Of a stretch of 64,000 nt of DNA, positions 24,879-32,933 are shown one piece after another. This DNA is from Vulcanisaeta sp. JCM 14467. Lineage in GTDB: Archaea > Thermoproteota > Thermoprotei > Thermoproteales > Thermocladiaceae. Within the stretch, counting starts at the first letter, position 1, and every line of letters starts with the position of its first letter. Location: NCBI RefSeq assembly GCF_001316245.1, contig NZ_BBDM01000004.1:62001-126000 (forward strand), written 5' to 3'. The translations under genes and the position numbers were made by a program. The notes beneath the pieces were generated by a model. The model worked only from the letters and a program-made list of their open reading frames with translations, was not told the DNA's origin and did not search any database.

Positions 24879-25706
24879 ATGGAGGTCACAGTCATTGGAA
24901 CGGGTAGGATGGGTAGCGCATTAGTTAGGAGGTTAGCTAAGCAGGGCTTTGACGTGTATGCATGGAATAGGACTAAGGAGAGACTAAGGGATTTACCCGC
25001 CAAGGCTATTGATGACATCTCACAGGCCAGGGGAGTTACCATCATATTCGTCTCTGACGATGAGGCATTAAATGCGGTTAAGGGTGTTGGTGGTGACATA
25101 ATCGTGTTATCCGGAACCTACAGTGTGAGCGCCGTTACGGCATTTAATGCTAGGTTTACGAGCATGGGTAGGGGATTACTCGCGGCACCCGTGGTTGGCG
25201 GGCCTGCTGATGTGGAGAATGGGACGGCCATATACCTGGTCGGTGGTCCCGAAGCCACCTATCAAAGGGTTAGGGAGGTGTTTGATAGGTTAGGTTTCGT
25301 GATTAGGCTTCCAACGGCTGAGTCCGCAATGGCGCTTAAGCTTGCCTATAACGCATTTTTGATAGGGTCTATGGCATTGCTTGGTGAGTACGTAGTGCTC
25401 GGTAGGACCTACGGGGTTGATGATGATACGCTAAAGTCATTATTGAGTAGGACCGTGTTTAAGGACGTGGCTGAGAAGTACCTTGATAGGATGCTCAAGC
25501 CCAAGTCACCACCATCATTCACGCTAGCCCTGGCAGCCAAGGACGTGCACTACGCGGTTAAGTCGGCCGGTGATGCTAAGACGCCTCTCGTAGTTTCATC
25601 GGCGGTTAAGTCCCTGTACGAGTTGCTAGCTGTTTTGGGCTTTGGTAATGAGGATTATGTTAGGGCAGGCCTACTCGAGCTTATTGGCGGTTTGAGGGAA
25701 AAATAA
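24879..25706 (+). CDS. NAD(P)-dependent 3-hydroxyisobutyrate dehydrogenase-family oxidoreductase
   Basis: The N-terminal Rossmann motif is GTGRMGSALVRRLAKQGFDVYAWNRT; the Asn-Arg-Thr after the second strand favours NADP. The substrate loop is LAAPVVGGPADVENGTAIYLVGG, and the catalytic lysine lies in LKLAYNAFLIG. Length is 275 residues. The family reduces or oxidises beta-hydroxyacids (3-hydroxyisobutyrate, tartronate semialdehyde, succinic semialdehyde); the substrate is not fixed. A TATA-like CTTTTAATT lies about 27 bases before ATG 24879. Confidence 0.85.
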   Translation: MEVTVIGTGRMGSALVRRLAKQGFDVYAWNRTKERLRDLPAKAIDDISQARGVTIIFVSDDEALNAVKGVGGDIIVLSGTYSVSAVTAFNARFTSMGRGLLAAPVVGGPADVENGTAIYLVGGPEATYQRVREVFDRLGFVIRLPTAESAMALKLAYNAFLIGSMALLGEYVVLGRTYGVDDDTLKSLLSRTVFKDVAEKYLDRMLKPKSPPSFTLALAAKDVHYAVKSAGDAKTPLVVSSAVKSLYELLAVLGFGNEDYVRAGLLELIGGLREK

Positions 25707-26122: not shown

Positions 26123-28768
26123 GTGGTTAGTAATAGGACGTTGCAATTAATGTCTAGGTTGTTCACGGCAGTTCTTTACTTTGCAATTTCCCTAATAGCA
26201 TTCATGCTCGATTTCCCATTCTACCCAGCCCCAGTTGCACTACTCATTGTTGTAGTGACTACGGCGCTGGCATACTCAGGGCATGTTAAGCTTGGCTTTG
26301 CAATAATGACGATACTCCTAATACCAGCGCTACTCTATGTCTATAAATACGCAGCACTTGGCGCCTTACTACTCATACTAATCCTCTTAATCCTGATCAG
26401 GGTCTTTGACTGGCTGGGTGTTGGTGTTGGAATGCTTGCCTGGGAGTTCTCAATAATGCCGAACCAGCTCTACGTCCTTTCAGTGCCCCTAATACTGACC
26501 TCGCCAAGCCTCACGATAGGGGTTACCAGGAGGGTGACGCCGCTTAAGTCCCTAATAACATTCCTAATACTTTACATACCAACACTATTACTGCTCAATG
26601 CCAATAACGCCATTATTCCCTGGTTTGGCTATGTGAGTATGAATCTAGCGCCGTTGCAATCACTTACCGTTAATTCAATAACGAGTGCGTTAGGAGGCAT
26701 GGACGTGGGGTTATACGGCCTTTCCCAGGCGATTGGTAGGGTCTTTACCTGGACCAGCACCTATGTGCTACCGCCAATAATGGCATTGACGGCGTACATT
26801 GCGTACGCCGTATCAAGTAGGTTGAGGTCACATGATAATAGGGTGGTTAGATTCCTCGCACCTGCCATTGGCACGATGACCGCCTACGCATTAATGACAT
26901 ACCTATTATTTTACATGAATCCATACTTCGGGCTTTACCAGGGTATTGACGTTAACACGTTGATGCGTGGGTTATTACCTGCCTCATCATTAGCCTCGCC
27001 ATACTACCACTAATAATGCACTTCAGGCTTGTCGAGATTAGGTTTGAACAGGAGGAGAAGCAATCAATGGTTGCGCTTGAGCGTGGATACCAACTAATCC
27101 TGAATAAGGATGAGCTAAAGTCCCTCGCAAATGAGTGGGATAATGTGGTTGGACTTGACGATATTAAAAATGAGATAGAGACCTCGGTCATAACGCCGCT
27201 TAGGGACGTTAAGTTATCCCAGAAATACGGCTTAATGCCAATACATGGAGTTCTCCTATTCGGTCCCCCCGGCGTGGGTAAGACAATGCTCGCGAGGGCA
27301 ATTGCAGGTAGGTTGGGTTGGACCACAATAATCATGAACCTAGGCGAACTGCTCAGTAAGTACTACGGCGAGAGCGAGAATAGGTTAACCGAGCTCTTCA
27401 AGGTTGCTAGGAACTATGCGCCGTCAGTAATAATAATTGATGAGTTCGACGCCATTGGTAAGGCAAGGACCAGGTATGTAAGCGATGATGTAACACCAAG
27501 GCTACTAAACATACTGCTCAGTGAGATGGATGGAATAACCAAGAGTAATGAGAATATCCTAGTAATCGGGACAACAAACCAGCCAGACCTCCTAGACCCG
27601 GCCCTGCTCAGGCCTGGCAGGTTCGACAAGGTAATCTACGTACCACCACCCAATGAGGAGACCAGGGCCAGAATGTTTGAGACAATGCTGAGGGGTAAAC
27701 CTGTCCAGGGGCCAATTGATTACGTGAAACTTGCCAAGATGACTGATAGGTTCACCGGCGCTGACATAATGAATGTGATTAGGACGGCAGTTCTCGAGTC
27801 ATTGAGGGATGGCGAGCCAATAACCCAGGGCAAGCTTGAGGAGATAATCAATAGGTATAAACCCAGCCTAACCTATGACCTCCTTGAGAGGTACGAGGCC
27901 TTCAGGCTTCAGTATAGTAGGTTGAGGACCTACGGCAAGGCGCAGGTGGGTATTCCGGAGGTTACCTGGAATGATGTTGGTGATCTTGAGGAGGTTAAGG
28001 AGGTCATTAATAAGTACGTAATAGCCACAATGCAGAGGAGGGATATACTCGAGAAGTTGGGTATTGAGCCAATACACGGCATACTACTCTTCGGTCCACC
28101 GGGTGTTGGTAAGACACTTGTTGCCAAGGCAACGGCAAATATGCTCAAGGCAAACTTCATAGAACTCAATGGAGCAGAGCTCGCCAGGGTTGGTCCTGAG
28201 AGGGCGGCCGCCGTTGTTAAGGACGTGTTCAACATGGCTCGTGATAATGCTCCAGCCATAATATTCATTGACGAAATAGACTCAGTAGCGCCGCCTAGGG
28301 ATTCACCGATAGGTGGTGTTTGGTCCAACGTAATTGCCCAGCTATTGACTGAGATGGATGGGTTAAGGGGGCTCAATAACGTAATAGTTATAGCGGCTAC
28401 GAATAGGCCCTGGTTCATTGATCCAGCCCTGCTTAGGCCTGGTAGATTTGACAAGGTTATCTACATACCACCACCGAATAAGGATGCTAGGCGTGAAATC
28501 ATTAAGATACACATGAGGAATGCGGAGGTTGAGGAGGGCGTAATTGACTGGGTTGCTGAGGTCACCGAGGCTATAGCGGCGCTGACCTGGCTGCCTGGTT
28601 AGGGAAGCTAAGATGAGGGCCCTTGACAGGGTTTTGAGTGGTGATAATAAGGTTAGGATTACCAGGGAGGACTTCGAGTACGCACTTAATAAGGTTCGCC
28701 CATCATTGAATAGGGAGTTGCTTAGTCAGTATGAGGACTTCGTAAGGAGGATTAATTTGATTGTTTGA
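26123..28768 (+). CDS. Membrane-bound tandem AAA ATPase (three frameshifts)
   Basis: The first 296 residues carry about eight hydrophobic helices. One base near 26968 links them to VITCLIISLAILPLIMHFRLVEIRF, a last helix followed by two AAA modules. D1 has GPPGVGKTMLARA, IIIDEFDAIG and LLRPGRFDK; D2 has GPPGVGKTLVAKA, IIFIDEIDSVAPP and LLRPGRFDK. The end is also broken: bases missing near 28573 and 28592 restore YSGADLAALVREAKMRALDRVLSG, and the protein ends at TGA 28768 (about 880 residues). Membrane-bound AAA proteins are known from Sulfolobus; they may unfold membrane or surface substrates and feed the proteasome. The TATA box TTTTTATAA lies about 27 bases before GTG 26123. The two Cas4-like genes follow. 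Confidence 0.85.
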
Positions 28769-28822
28769 TCATGGTGCTTTTATCCAGTGGTATGGTATAG
28801 CTTCAGGAGTTATCGTAGGCTT

Positions 28823-28831
28823 AGTAATTTA
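28823..28831 (+). promoter_or_regulatory. TATA box of the Cas4-like nuclease gene
   Basis: AGTAATTTAAAGGG contains ATTTAAAG about 28 bases before ATG 28856. This suggests that the two Cas4-like genes are transcribed from their own promoter and favours this start over the longer frame from 28787. Confidence 0.45.
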
Positions 28832-28855
28832 AAGGGTTCCTTTCACAGTTTCGTC

Positions 28856-29686
28856 ATGAGTCAAAAACCTGAAGCATTGAAGAATGTAATTGAGGAAGTG
28901 ACGAAATTGGTAAAGGAGGGGTATTCCCTAACGAGTATTGTTAAGGAGGTTACCGAGGCGATTAATAGGGATATTGGTTTGAGCAAGGTGATATTTAATG
29001 AGATAAAGGAGTCTATGGTTAAGATAAGCCCGGGCAATGTACCTGTCGGCCTATTCACACAATGCGCATTAATACCCAGTTACTACCTGACGGGTAAGAC
29101 ACCAAGCATTGATTGGGGTGACGTAACAATGCACCTACTGGGTAAGATGATACATAGTCTGGCGATCGTGGAGATCAAGAATAGGCTTGGGAATAGGTGT
29201 GTTGAGGGTGTTGAGGTCATGTACACGTATAACGCCTGGACTATGAGGGGTAAGCCAGACCTTGACTGCGGTAATTACTACCTGGAGTTTAAGACCATAA
29301 TGGGTAGGGTCACTAAGGCGAGGTTGTTCCATGACATGATACAGGCAGGCTTCTACTCAGCTGCTGGTAATAAGAATACGTACATACTCTACCTAATACT
29401 CAGCGACGGCGTATTGCGCAATATAGTGCCTGTCGAGATCATACCCGAGGTTGGCTATCCAGTCATATACGCCTTCAAGCTATGGGTCAAGGCTGTGGAG
29501 GGCGGCGACATTGGGGCCCTAGTCGCTAAGACGACTTCATGCAAGGTTTGTAGGTTTAGGAATATATGCATAATGAGGACTAAGAACCCGCACGAGGTCT
29601 TCCTACCAGGTAAGGAGTTGCTCGATAATTACCTCGACTATATAAAGAGTGAAGTCTCTAAGGCTGGGGTTAAGGTGGTCGGCTGA
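28856..29686 (+). CDS. Cas4/RecB-like PD-(D/E)xK nuclease with four-cysteine Fe-S site
   Basis: The 276-residue protein has every element of the Cas4 fold in order: Cys70 (FTQCALIPSYY), GKMIH with His100, RGKPD with Asp135, LEFK with Glu144 and Lys146, QAGFY with Gln163 and Tyr167, and the C-terminal CKVCRFRNIC (Cys229, 232, 238). The four cysteines would hold a 4Fe-4S cluster. Residues 1-60 are a helical extension not typical of Cas4. No cas gene or repeat array is in the window, so a CRISPR adaptation role is not supported. More likely it acts on DNA ends in repair or replication, or in an unknown complex. Its TGA overlaps the ATG of the next gene (TGATG). Confidence 0.8.
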   Translation: MSQKPEALKNVIEEVTKLVKEGYSLTSIVKEVTEAINRDIGLSKVIFNEIKESMVKISPGNVPVGLFTQCALIPSYYLTGKTPSIDWGDVTMHLLGKMIHSLAIVEIKNRLGNRCVEGVEVMYTYNAWTMRGKPDLDCGNYYLEFKTIMGRVTKARLFHDMIQAGFYSAAGNKNTYILYLILSDGVLRNIVPVEIIPEVGYPVIYAFKLWVKAVEGGDIGALVAKTTSCKVCRFRNICIMRTKNPHEVFLPGKELLDNYLDYIKSEVSKAGVKVVG

Positions 29687-30612
29687 TGAGTCTCGAGGAA
29701 ATAACAGACCTGGCAAATTACCTACTAAATAGGTTGCAGGTTAGGGATACCCACTTCATAACATCAATTGCCAAGTGCTCATTACTGTCCCAGAGGAGGG
29801 ATGTGAGTATAATGGATGAGGCATACGGTGAGTACTTACCGAGGGTTTTAACGGTGTGCGCCACAGAGAAGCACGTGGTTAGGGTTGAGGATTTAGTGAT
29901 TGAATTACCAAGGCTTCTCAGGTGCGGTGACTCATTAATACTGCCAAAGCTCATGCTACTCAAGGATAATGCTAAGTCCCACATTGTCGAGGCACTACTC
30001 GTAGCCGCACTACTCAATACCGAGGTTCAACTTCATTACCTATCTAAAAATATAAGTGGTGATATTGAGGAGGGCTTATCAATAACGATAAAGCCCGAGT
30101 GGGGTAGGGAATTACTCAATGAGGTAATTAAGTCCTTAAAGAGTAGGGAGGTTGGCGTTAAGACAATAAGTTGTGCCATATGCCCATTGAAGGATGTATG
30201 CCCATTTAGTAAGCTAGGCGATAAGACGGTATTACCTAGCGAGACCGAGAAAATAATTGATGAGCTTTATAGTAAGTTGATTACCGAGCTCACGAGTACG
30301 AGGGAGGAGCGTGGCACGGAGGTTTTAACACCACCTAGTACGCTGGATAAGGAGGGCGTTAGGAATTACCTGAGACAAGTGGCTGATTGGGCGCGTTCCC
30401 ACGGTAGGACGTGGGTCAGTGTTGCGGTTGGTAGGTGTCCGGTATGTGGTAGGGAGGGTACGTTGGTTATTAGGATCACCAGCGGCGGTGAGAGGGTCCT
30501 CTATAGGCATGGTTCCTCAACATGCACGATAGGCACCATAGACGAGTCCATTGATAAAATAAGCATTGATAGGTTCCTAGAGATCGAGAGTACCGAGACG
30601 GGGACTAAGTGA
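29686..30612 (+). CDS. Catalytically degenerate Cas4-like protein with C-terminal zinc finger
   Basis: This 308-residue protein has the cysteine frame of a Cas4-type Fe-S nuclease: Cys31 (IAKCSLLSQRR) and CAICPLKDVCPF (Cys163, 166, 172). Between them the alignment by eye puts VVRVEDLVIELPRLLRCGDSLILPKLMLLKDNAKSHIVEALLVAALL over the nuclease core, without a convincing Asp and ExK pair. A separate C-terminal region holds CPVCGREG and a later HGSSTC, a likely zinc finger. Translational overlap with the intact nuclease suggests a heteromer in which one subunit cuts and the other binds DNA through the cluster and zinc finger. I know no named family with this layout. Confidence 0.65.
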   Translation: MSLEEITDLANYLLNRLQVRDTHFITSIAKCSLLSQRRDVSIMDEAYGEYLPRVLTVCATEKHVVRVEDLVIELPRLLRCGDSLILPKLMLLKDNAKSHIVEALLVAALLNTEVQLHYLSKNISGDIEEGLSITIKPEWGRELLNEVIKSLKSREVGVKTISCAICPLKDVCPFSKLGDKTVLPSETEKIIDELYSKLITELTSTREERGTEVLTPPSTLDKEGVRNYLRQVADWARSHGRTWVSVAVGRCPVCGREGTLVIRITSGGERVLYRHGSSTCTIGTIDESIDKISIDRFLEIESTETGTK

Positions 30613-31161: not shown

Positions 31162-31707
31162 GTGAGTACATCTGTTGAGCATACGAGGAAGATCCTTAAT
31201 GAGTTAATAATGAACAATTTACTAATTAGTGTTAAGGAGAGACAGAACCCACTGGTTTCTGAGTACGTCATTAGGTATGGAGATAAATGCCCTAGTATTA
31301 TTAGTATTGATGAGGATGTGGGTATGGATAGGGAATTGACTTGGTACCAAGTATTGACCATGGGCATTGGTTTAAAACTTAGCATAAATAGGATTGGACT
31401 AAGTCTTGGTCTTGAGGATAATTCCATAAGGGTTCTACTCAGGTTGATGAATGGTGATAGGTTAAAATCATCTGAGGAATTCATAATGGCTTGTGGCGAG
31501 GTTAAGGACTCAATCTATGGTAAGTCAGTGATTGACCTTCTCATTAACCTTGACGTTATCTCCAGGGTTTTCAATACCGTGAAGGAGAGGAGGAAGTTGG
31601 GTGATGGCTACATTGATGAGATTATGAAGTTCCTAAGTAATGCCAAGTCGAGGGTTGAGCAGGACGTGAGGAGGTTAGTCAGTGCCTATCAATGGTTTGA
31701 GGAGTGA
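31162..31707 (+). CDS. Unrecognised soluble protein upstream of GH57 amylase
   Basis: The 181-residue protein is not recognised. It starts at GTG 31162, about 27 bases after CTTTATTAG. The N-terminal 40 residues (HTRKILNELIMNNLLISVKERQNPLVSEYVIRY) and the middle (TMGIGLKLSINRIGLSLGLEDNSIRVLLRLM) are helical; the second stretch resembles a helix-turn-helix. The C-terminus (FLSNAKSRVEQDVRRLVSAYQWFEE) looks like a coiled coil. Only 6 bases separate it from the GH57 gene, so the two are cotranscribed and may be functionally linked. Confidence 0.6.
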   Translation: MSTSVEHTRKILNELIMNNLLISVKERQNPLVSEYVIRYGDKCPSIISIDEDVGMDRELTWYQVLTMGIGLKLSINRIGLSLGLEDNSIRVLLRLMNGDRLKSSEEFIMACGEVKDSIYGKSVIDLLINLDVISRVFNTVKERRKLGDGYIDEIMKFLSNAKSRVEQDVRRLVSAYQWFEE

Positions 31708-31713
31708 TGGCTC

Positions 31714-32933
31714 ATGGTTAGGAAGTTAATACTATTTCTCGAGATGCATCAACCAAGGAGGTTGAGGTATGGCGTTCTTGATAAGCTATGTGATTTAAGG
31801 GGTAATGAGATTAATGAGTCGGTAATAAACTCGATAATATTTAATGATGAGGTGAATAGGGAAATACTAAATAGGGTTGCTGATAAGTCATACATACCGA
31901 CTCTCGAGTTAATGAGGGACCTGGGCAATGAGGGTTTCAAGGCATCGATCTCGATATCCGGCTCATTAATTGATCAATTACTAATGTGGAGGCCTGAGGT
32001 CATTGACTTGTTAAAGGAATTGGTGAGGAAGGGAGTCATTGAGCTAGTGACTGAGCCATATCATCACTCCCTGGCTTCACTCATTAGTGGGGATTTATTT
32101 CTTGAGGAGTTGAGGGATCATGTTGAGGCGTATAAGTCATTATTTGGGCAGGTACCCATTGTCTTTGAGAATACGGAATTCCTCTATAGGAATGATTGGG
32201 GCATTTTGATGGAGAGGCTGGTGCGTCGTTGGTTCTCACTGAGGGTGTTGATTGGGTGCTTGGTTGGAGAAGCCCGACATACCTATACGGAGCGCCTAAT
32301 TCGAGAGTTAAGCTATTATTGAGGCATTACAGGTTATCCGATGACATAGGCTTCAGGTTTAGTAATAAGTCCTGGGATCAATGGCCGTTAACGGCTGATA
32401 AGTACATGGCCTGGGTCAGGGCGACACCTGGTGATTTCGTGCTGATTGGCTTAGACTTCGAGACATTTGGCGAGCATCATTGGCGTGAGAGTGGGATCTT
32501 TGACTTCCTCGCGTGGCTTCCTAAGGAAGCTAGGAGGGCTGATGTTGGGTTCATACATCCATCATCACTGGCAAGTGAGGAGCCCATTGACTACCTAGAC
32601 ATACCATCAGTAATTTCCTGGGCTGATGTTGAGAAGGATGACAGTGCATGGCAGGGCAATGACCTTCAAAGGATTGCGCTCAATCACGTAGCTTCCATAG
32701 GCGATTTAATGAGGTTCCACGGCCTTGAGAAGACCTGGAGGTACCTATTAACGAGTGATCATTATTATTACATGTCCATGAAGCATGGATCGAGTGGTGA
32801 GGTTCATAGTTATTTCAACCCCTATAACTCAGCATTTACGGCATTTAAAACTGTCGAGGACGTCGTTTTAGGTATTACATGCGCCCTCGCTAGCACAGGA
32901 TTAAATAGGATTAGGTCTCGTATTGCTAGGTAA
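31714..32933 (+). CDS. GH57-family alpha-amylase-like glycosidase (one frameshift)
   Basis: About 406 residues. GH57 motif 1 is LFLEMHQPRRLRYG, motif 2 is ELVTEPYHHSLASL, motif 3 is VFENTEFLYRND (catalytic nucleophile Glu region), and motif 4 is LIGLDFETFGEHHW (acid/base Asp region). SWADVEKDDSAWQGNDLQRIAL is the common fifth element. The frame breaks near 32207; the join is LMERLG(.)DGEAGASLVLTEGVDWVLGWRSPTYLYG. No signal peptide is present, so it should act inside the cell on glycogen or maltodextrins. It could be an alpha-amylase or a glucanotransferase. Confidence 0.88.

Follow-up and report, generated by a model that had tools for sequence, protein, structure and literature searches.

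Two overlapping Cas4-like genes of Vulcanisaeta: a nuclease-type protein paired with a relative that has lost the catalytic residues

Introduction

A 64-kb stretch of the genome of Vulcanisaeta sp. JCM 14467 (hereafter the window) carries two overlapping genes for Cas4-like proteins directly downstream of a gene for a membrane AAA protein. What would two such proteins do together, away from any clustered regularly interspaced short palindromic repeat (CRISPR) locus? We refer to the nuclease as CasA and to the second protein as CasB, working labels that are coined here. The explanation that we favour, and to which we give about an even chance, is that they form a two-subunit iron-sulfur nuclease of the Cas4/RecB fold, with a catalytic CasA and a pseudo-nuclease CasB, acting in chromosomal DNA processing. 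Paired Cas4-family proteins have a precedent in the Csa1 (Cas4', DUF911) and Cas4 proteins of type I-A CRISPR adaptation, as described in PMC3466216, PMC4176176 and PMC5704561. Roles of Cas4 outside CRISPR were called uncharacterised in 2017 (PMC5704561). No description of the Vulcanisaeta pair was found in the open-access literature, a scope outside which most subscription papers fall.

Results

The open reading frame of CasA is listed from a GTG at position 28787 and ends at 29686; the ATG at 28856 is the start common to its relatives, and the residue numbers given in an earlier note on this DNA are correct when counted from it. Residues C70, H100, D135, K146, Q163, Y167, C229, C232 and C238 are identical in all ten sequences of our CasA alignment (A1, which leaves out the frameshifted copies of G016 and G020 and the open frame of G017). 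E144 is kept in the nine Vulcanisaeta rows, and in the remaining row (G014) the ExK motif is shifted by a gap. CasA therefore has the catalytic D135, E144-x-K146 and QxxxY (Q163, Y167) of the Cas4/RecB nucleases, together with their four-cysteine frame of one N-terminal (C70) and three C-terminal cysteines (C229, C232, C238); the nuclease residues listed in the earlier note (Cys70, His100, Asp135, ExK144-146, QxxxY, CxxCx5C) are thus the ones kept in the aligned sequences. By motif, D135, E144, Q163 and Y167 are the conserved counterparts of Pcal_0546 residues D123, E136, Q149 and Y153, which PMC4176176 reports to be required for activity.

With the curated Cas4 model TIGR00372, CasA scores 15.2 bits, the cut-off being 65, and in none of the 12 Vulcanisaeta genomes does PF01930 match the pair. 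Because CasA stays below the curated cut-off and yet matches the Cas4 profile of PADLOC (E 2.4e-6), we term it Cas4-like. It also matches PHROG 1706, labelled CRISPR/Cas system associated (E 5e-6), and Foldseek relates its structural model to SSO0001 (E 2.7e-6, template-modelling (TM) score 0.40 of query) and, as the top match in BFVD, to a protein of Stygiolobus rod-shaped virus (E 2.4e-7, TM 0.47 of query). The PADLOC, PHROG and both Foldseek matches agree that CasA is a Cas4/RecB nuclease. The predicted local distance difference test score (pLDDT) of the model, in blocks of ten residues, is 73-89 for residues 111-210 and below 50 in the cluster region. A sequence search of the PDB with alignment A1 gave nothing meaningful (best E 0.78), and a Pfam match to Rep_fac_C at the CasA N-terminus was disregarded as below cut-off (0.0087 with the frame from the GTG, 0.011 with that from the ATG).

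The promoter claimed for the nuclease gene in the earlier note recurs in all 11 Vulcanisaeta upstream regions compared: about 23-30 nt 5' of the ATG stands TTTAAA (nine copies) or TATAAA (two copies), a position that would fit a leaderless archaeal transcript. Coordinates of the features of the locus are given in Table 1.

Table 1. Features of the CasA-CasB locus, in window positions
Feature	Coordinates	Strand	Basis
Membrane-domain and tandem CDC48-type AAA gene, two frameshifts	26123..28768	+	Open reading frames; intact in relatives; neighbour, candidate partner only
TATA-like box TTTAAA, 23-28 nt 5' of CasA ATG	28828..28833	+	Upstream comparison of Vulcanisaeta copies
CasA, Cas4/RecB-type nuclease, 276 aa	28856..29686	+	Alignment, residue table, PADLOC, PHROG and Foldseek matches
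CasA stop / CasB start overlap (TGATG)	29686..29687	+	Junction comparison
CasB, Cas4-like pseudo-nuclease, 308 aa	29686..30612	+	Alignment A2, profile match to CasA, residue table
CasB zinc-ribbon-like domain, about residues 241-289 (C251, C254, H275, C280)	30406..30552	+	PF22415 PSV_ORF131-like

CasB is a homologue of CasA. The two families align in hhalign with an E-value of 7.8e-7 (1.2e-5 without the G014 row), the CasA profile retrieves CasB at 7e-7 to 2e-4 in eight of 11 sampled Vulcanisaeta genomes, and the order of predicted strands and helices appears similar by eye in the two models. The CasB alignments A2 and A3 do not include the frameshifted copies of G017 and G020 or the tailless one of G023; the A2 row of G022 ends 48 bases before the stop and that of G025 starts at the second ATG. 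C31, C163, C166 and C172 are invariant in the nine sequences, so that the second protein does have the same cysteine frame, as the earlier note had stated. The catalytic residues are another matter. In the hhalign alignment D135 of CasA falls opposite L77 of CasB, E144 opposite L86, Q163 opposite E102 and Y167 opposite V106; L77, L86 and E102 are invariant in the nine sequences, whose position 106 varies among V, I and A. K88, opposite K146, is kept as the lysine of ExK along with all four cysteines. Searches of Pfam, TIGRFAM, PHROG and PADLOC returned no nuclease profile for CasB. By its sequence CasB is not a second nuclease, its catalytic residues having been lost, and the pairing of an active CasA with a dead CasB is well supported.

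The tail of CasB carries four further residues, C251, C254, H275 and C280, that are invariant in 9/9 sequences, and its similarity to PF22415 (E 0.0059) is below cut-off. Stretches like this tail also occur at other places in Vulcanisaeta and in further Thermoproteales genomes. Within Vulcanisaeta, the zinc-ribbon-like domain is dispersed (L043 1453-2316, L039 1273-2103, L045 1486-2001), and in L043 and L039 it is followed by apparent membrane segments.

The conservation of the pair, on which the earlier note had staked its proposal beforehand, holds throughout the genus. CasA and CasB are both present in 12/12 Vulcanisaeta genomes, with draft-genome frameshifts in CasA of G016 and G020 and in CasB of G017 and G020. 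Their genes meet in TGATG or TAATG in 11 of the 12 junctions and in ATGA in the last (L060, G023). Among 398 sampled Thermoproteota genomes, CasA was found in 13, namely 11 Vulcanisaeta, G014 from the same family (E 1.1e-12, a value independent of A1, which contains G014) and, weakly, G359 (1.1e-7); the N-terminus of CasB was found in 11, all Vulcanisaeta. A match of G040 to CasA residues 12-81 was taken as chance, as it lies inside a frame that we presume to encode chorismate synthase. Ratios of nonsynonymous to synonymous substitution rates (dN/dS) against the window copy are 0.03-0.18 for CasA (seven of 11 relatives compared) and 0.07-0.25 for CasB (six of 11). For neighbouring genes, with five comparisons each, they are 0.03-0.05 (ribC), 0.05-0.18 (the gene at 24879) and 0.11-0.18 (the uncharacterised gene at 31162-31707). 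Both CasA and CasB are under purifying selection, CasB being less constrained than CasA. Their presence in all 12 congeners and these dN/dS values make the pair more than a chance association. The earlier proposal of a two-subunit nuclease is thus supported as regards a conserved two-gene unit and refined in that the second protein is, by sequence, not itself a nuclease. Of the two findings that the earlier note had named as refuting it, a pair that is not conserved and a placement in an already named two-subunit system, neither was made.

The pair is separate from the CRISPR genes. CRISPR-like repeats are absent from the 64-kb window, as the earlier note had read it, and so are cas1 matches; cas2 was not searched. 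In the same genome, cas1 is matched at C7:1299-2024 and at C4:6958-7708, outside the window (C4:62001-126000). The pair could still contribute to CRISPR adaptation in trans, perhaps by processing prespacers, like the second Cas4 of Pyrococcus furiosus. CasA belongs to the Cas4 family and adaptation with two Cas4 proteins is known: Csa1 and Cas4 are both essential in S. islandicus according to PMC5704561, and PMC9419969 describes Cas4-2 of P. furiosus as controlling directional spacer integration. cas1 is over cut-off in six of the 12 Vulcanisaeta genomes, among them the three that, besides G025, are at least 90% complete. However, G025 (99% complete) retains both pair genes as open frames, with remnants only of cas1 (a 29-residue match below cut-off) and csa1 (a fragment); the other five genomes lacking a cas1 match have a completeness of 54-87%, and little can be concluded from its absence there. 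In addition, G015 has csa1, cas1 and cas4 matches of its own side by side elsewhere, at 1.613-1.616 Mb, and Cas4 and Csa1 extend to other genera of the order without the pair.

Nor is CasB a Csa1. Like CasA and CasB, Csa1 and Cas4 are two Cas4-family proteins, each with a four-cysteine motif, and they share one complex in the accounts of PMC3466216 and PMC4176176. In contrast, the RecB motifs described for Csa1 (PMC4176176) are lost in CasB, the window has no cas1 match, and the csa1 and cas4 matches of Vulcanisaeta sit elsewhere. The Csa1 profile (PF06023) gave no match at the pair when searched, and in hhalign reached E-values of 0.17-0.37 with CasB and 0.19-0.21 with CasA, neither of them a match, whereas with other Cas4 groups the identical profile reaches about 2e-5 to 5e-5. 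An identity of CasB with Csa1 was rejected on these grounds, and the pair has no match in Csa1-Cas4, the one named two-subunit system tested. Taken with the G025 and G015 genomes, this makes a role of the pair in CRISPR adaptation in trans unlikely in our view.

CasA also appears distinct from ordinary solo-Cas4 proteins such as SSO0001, with which it shares the RecB fold, D, ExK, Q/Y, four cysteines and a location outside CRISPR loci. PF01930 indicates a solo-Cas4-like gene (frames of 247-278 aa) in 10/12 Vulcanisaeta genomes, and the four of these genes that were read match solo-type Cas4 of other Thermoproteales at 4e-20. CasA, unlike them, matches the Thermoproteales solo-type group around the cysteines only (6e-4); against the Vulcanisaeta CRISPR Cas4 its E-value is 6e-4, or 9e-6 in the opposite direction. 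PMC5704561 mentions a Vulcanisaeta solo-Cas4 dissimilar to those of Pyrobaculum and Thermoproteus, by which either CasA or the 250-aa gene could be meant. None of the 20 neighbourhoods viewed around other Cas4-like matches contained a gene resembling CasB (best E 0.042 in a small set). The pair is neither a CRISPR Csa1-Cas4 nor, as far as the profiles indicate, an ordinary solo-Cas4, and Vulcanisaeta has both kinds elsewhere.

The nearest profiles to CasA are that of G014 (3e-13) and then the Cas4-like nucleases of rudiviruses (SIRV2 gp19, 6e-9), and the best BFVD fold match given above is rudiviral as well. A tree points the same way as the profiles: G014, G359 and CasA form a group next to the rudiviral Cas4 and separate from both the solo and the CRISPR kinds, in a split supported at 94/94 that is not starred and involves long branches. 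These filamentous viruses of Crenarchaeota thus hold the closest relatives of CasA after G014, and the pair might be a Cas4 domesticated from a virus or mobile element, with a function in defence against viruses or in binding DNA as a structural protein. The Cas4 of TTV1 (TP1) was inactivated and turned into a nucleocapsid protein, as PMC4625639 reports, and the CasB tail resembles a domain of Pyrobaculum spherical virus. Such a function is nevertheless improbable, as the pair has a common chromosomal setting in 11/12 genomes, is under purifying selection and keeps the CasA active site intact. Viral contigs and plasmids yielded no CasA relative. The phage collection gave eight CasA matches, all to rudiviral genes annotated as Cas4-like or hypothetical, at 25-31% identity over about 50-70% of CasA; they are weak, the best at 5e-5 (Stygiolobus rod-shaped virus, the sole one below 1e-3) and the others at 0.07-0.7, and CasB had no match there. 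The rudiviral proteins further differ in being viral, with no second Cas4-like gene annotated in the rudivirus stretches viewed.

The AAA gene had been described in the earlier note as present next to the Cas4-like pair. For the pair this is borne out, by its motifs and by the TGATG overlap; the AAA gene is not one intact reading frame in the window, where it is read in frames 26123-27013 and 27016-28602 and, for its C-terminus, in another frame to about 28768. It forms one frame of 841-900 aa in eight relatives (L061, cut by a contig end, among them) and one of 899 aa in G019, and is split also in two drafts (L058, L059); its AAA domains were identified in the relative L050. A GH57-type gene (our own reading) at 31714-32933 is likewise in two frames in the window and in one in G019, and for this reason the frame breaks in both genes are likely assembly indels, true mutations being also possible.

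The membrane AAA protein might unfold or move a protein-DNA complex for the nuclease, the three genes encoding one machine. The AAA gene is adjacent to and co-oriented with the pair in 11/12 Vulcanisaeta genomes, and among the matches listed its membrane domain was matched only in Vulcanisaeta. Three rudivirus records also have an ATPase, putative Holliday junction helicase or protease gene before the Cas4-like gene. This adjacency says little, however, because within the stretches compared gene order is conserved on either flank as well, from FBA to cdc6, so that it belongs to the background. In G019, a single contig, the pair is at 2.43 Mb, about 0.8 Mb from the AAA gene at 1.60 Mb, and none of the tested upstream neighbours precedes the pair. 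The link by adjacency suggested in the earlier note is weakened accordingly, its three-gene arrangement holding in 11 genomes and failing in this one. The pair also has its own TATA box, and the viral ATPase-type proteins have no meaningful similarity to the AAA protein (best E 0.06). Most likely the pair does not need the AAA gene close by; given the background synteny and the separation in G019, a partnership was not retained, and we give a joint machine little credence.

In the place of the AAA gene, G019 has an IS605-type TnpB gene directly before the pair (L051 5944-7215). The rudiviral arrangement, in which the Cas4-like nuclease gene is immediately preceded by one whose annotation reads ATPase, helicase or protease, is seen at L173 1008-2926, L174 1176-3115 and L175 1038-2965, and parallels the AAA-nuclease adjacency without meaningful similarity between the proteins.

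Other partners and equivalents were considered. NurA is encoded in 44/45 genomes of the order, including all 12 Vulcanisaeta, and the pair was for this reason rejected as a replacement of NurA. In G014, the Cas4-like nuclease stands in an operon-like run (L055 7172-10544) followed by a SWIM-like protein and a HerA-type ATPase with one unknown protein on either side of it, the SWIM-like motif being seen by eye with no profile match. The corresponding HerA-type run of G013 (L161) shows no CasA-like gene. In Vulcanisaeta, a HerA-like ATPase run with proteins of about 1200, 300 and 170 aa occurs at L162 4656-10975 and L169 3739-9995, and the HerA-like genes viewed sit in other clusters than the pair. 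We do not claim a HerA partnership, in view of the G013 run and of these separate clusters. A weak CasB-profile match beside a HerA-like gene of G011 (0.0054, small set) was dropped, the protein being rich in apparent membrane segments and without the cysteine frame.

Discussion

The preferred explanation would work as follows. CasA would be the metal-dependent catalytic subunit and, like its characterised relatives, most likely cuts single-stranded DNA or resects ends; Sso0001 is a 5'-3' single-stranded DNA exonuclease in the account of PMC3466216. CasB would be a diverged relative, perhaps a duplicate, that has lost the active site while keeping the four-cysteine staple and carrying the zinc-ribbon-like tail. 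Translated from overlapping genes, the two proteins most likely assemble into a heteromer, presumably with their iron-sulfur clusters loaded, in which CasB may position, stabilise or gate CasA on single-stranded DNA or DNA ends as a structural or DNA-guiding partner. The most likely role would be chromosomal repair or the processing of replication intermediates and not CRISPR adaptation.

RecC carries a degenerate nuclease domain beside RecB, and by this analogy CasB may stand beside CasA in much the same way. Chain C of RecBCD, which we take to be RecC, is among the fold matches of CasA (1.6e-3) and of CasB (0.09, not significant). AddB resembles CasA in having an iron-staple RecB nuclease, according to PMC3466216. 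Unlike the AddB and RecB-RecC modules, CasA and CasB are small stand-alone proteins without helicase domains. A bolder formulation, which we put forward tentatively and would not bet on, is that the pair is a dedicated, CRISPR-independent two-subunit iron-staple nuclease with one active and one pseudo-nuclease subunit, a helicase-free archaeal counterpart of the RecB-RecC or AddA-AddB modules that arose in one genus when a virus-type Cas4 was duplicated and one copy inactivated.

Several observations weigh against a two-subunit nuclease in DNA processing. The CasA model is weak, with a mean pLDDT of 63.4 and a TM score to SSO0001 of about 0.4 of query. The CasB model is poor (pLDDT 62.5) and retrieved no PDB fold at E <= 0.001; a RecB fold of CasB is suggested by profile homology to CasA. 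This homology is strongest in the second half of the protein, and in a tree with CasB added, which is poorly resolved (support 65/97), CasB is not the sister of CasA. E102, opposite Q163, is an invariant glutamate that may have another role or leave the site a residual activity. The CasB of G023 (L060 9509-10162) has about 218 residues and lacks the zinc-ribbon tail, which no frame just downstream holds. The constraint on CasB resembles that on the uncharacterised neighbour at 31162-31707. With NurA present in every Vulcanisaeta genome, it is not obvious why a further nuclease for end processing would be needed, and restriction to one genus is unusual for a repair enzyme. CasA and CasB might also be read together and act separately, CasB as an iron-sulfur and zinc DNA-binding regulator or redox sensor, which would suit its missing active site, its additional zinc-ribbon-like tail and its faster evolution than CasA, but the overlap of the genes at 12/12 junctions and their strict co-occurrence make this very doubtful.

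The whole genus thus has a pair of Cas4-like proteins, one of them apparently active and the other apparently dead in catalysis but with its metal sites retained. Being small and from a thermophile, the two proteins allow one to ask whether a pseudo-Cas4 steers an active subunit, and the pair may show whether the four-cysteine staple serves a purpose beyond catalysis.

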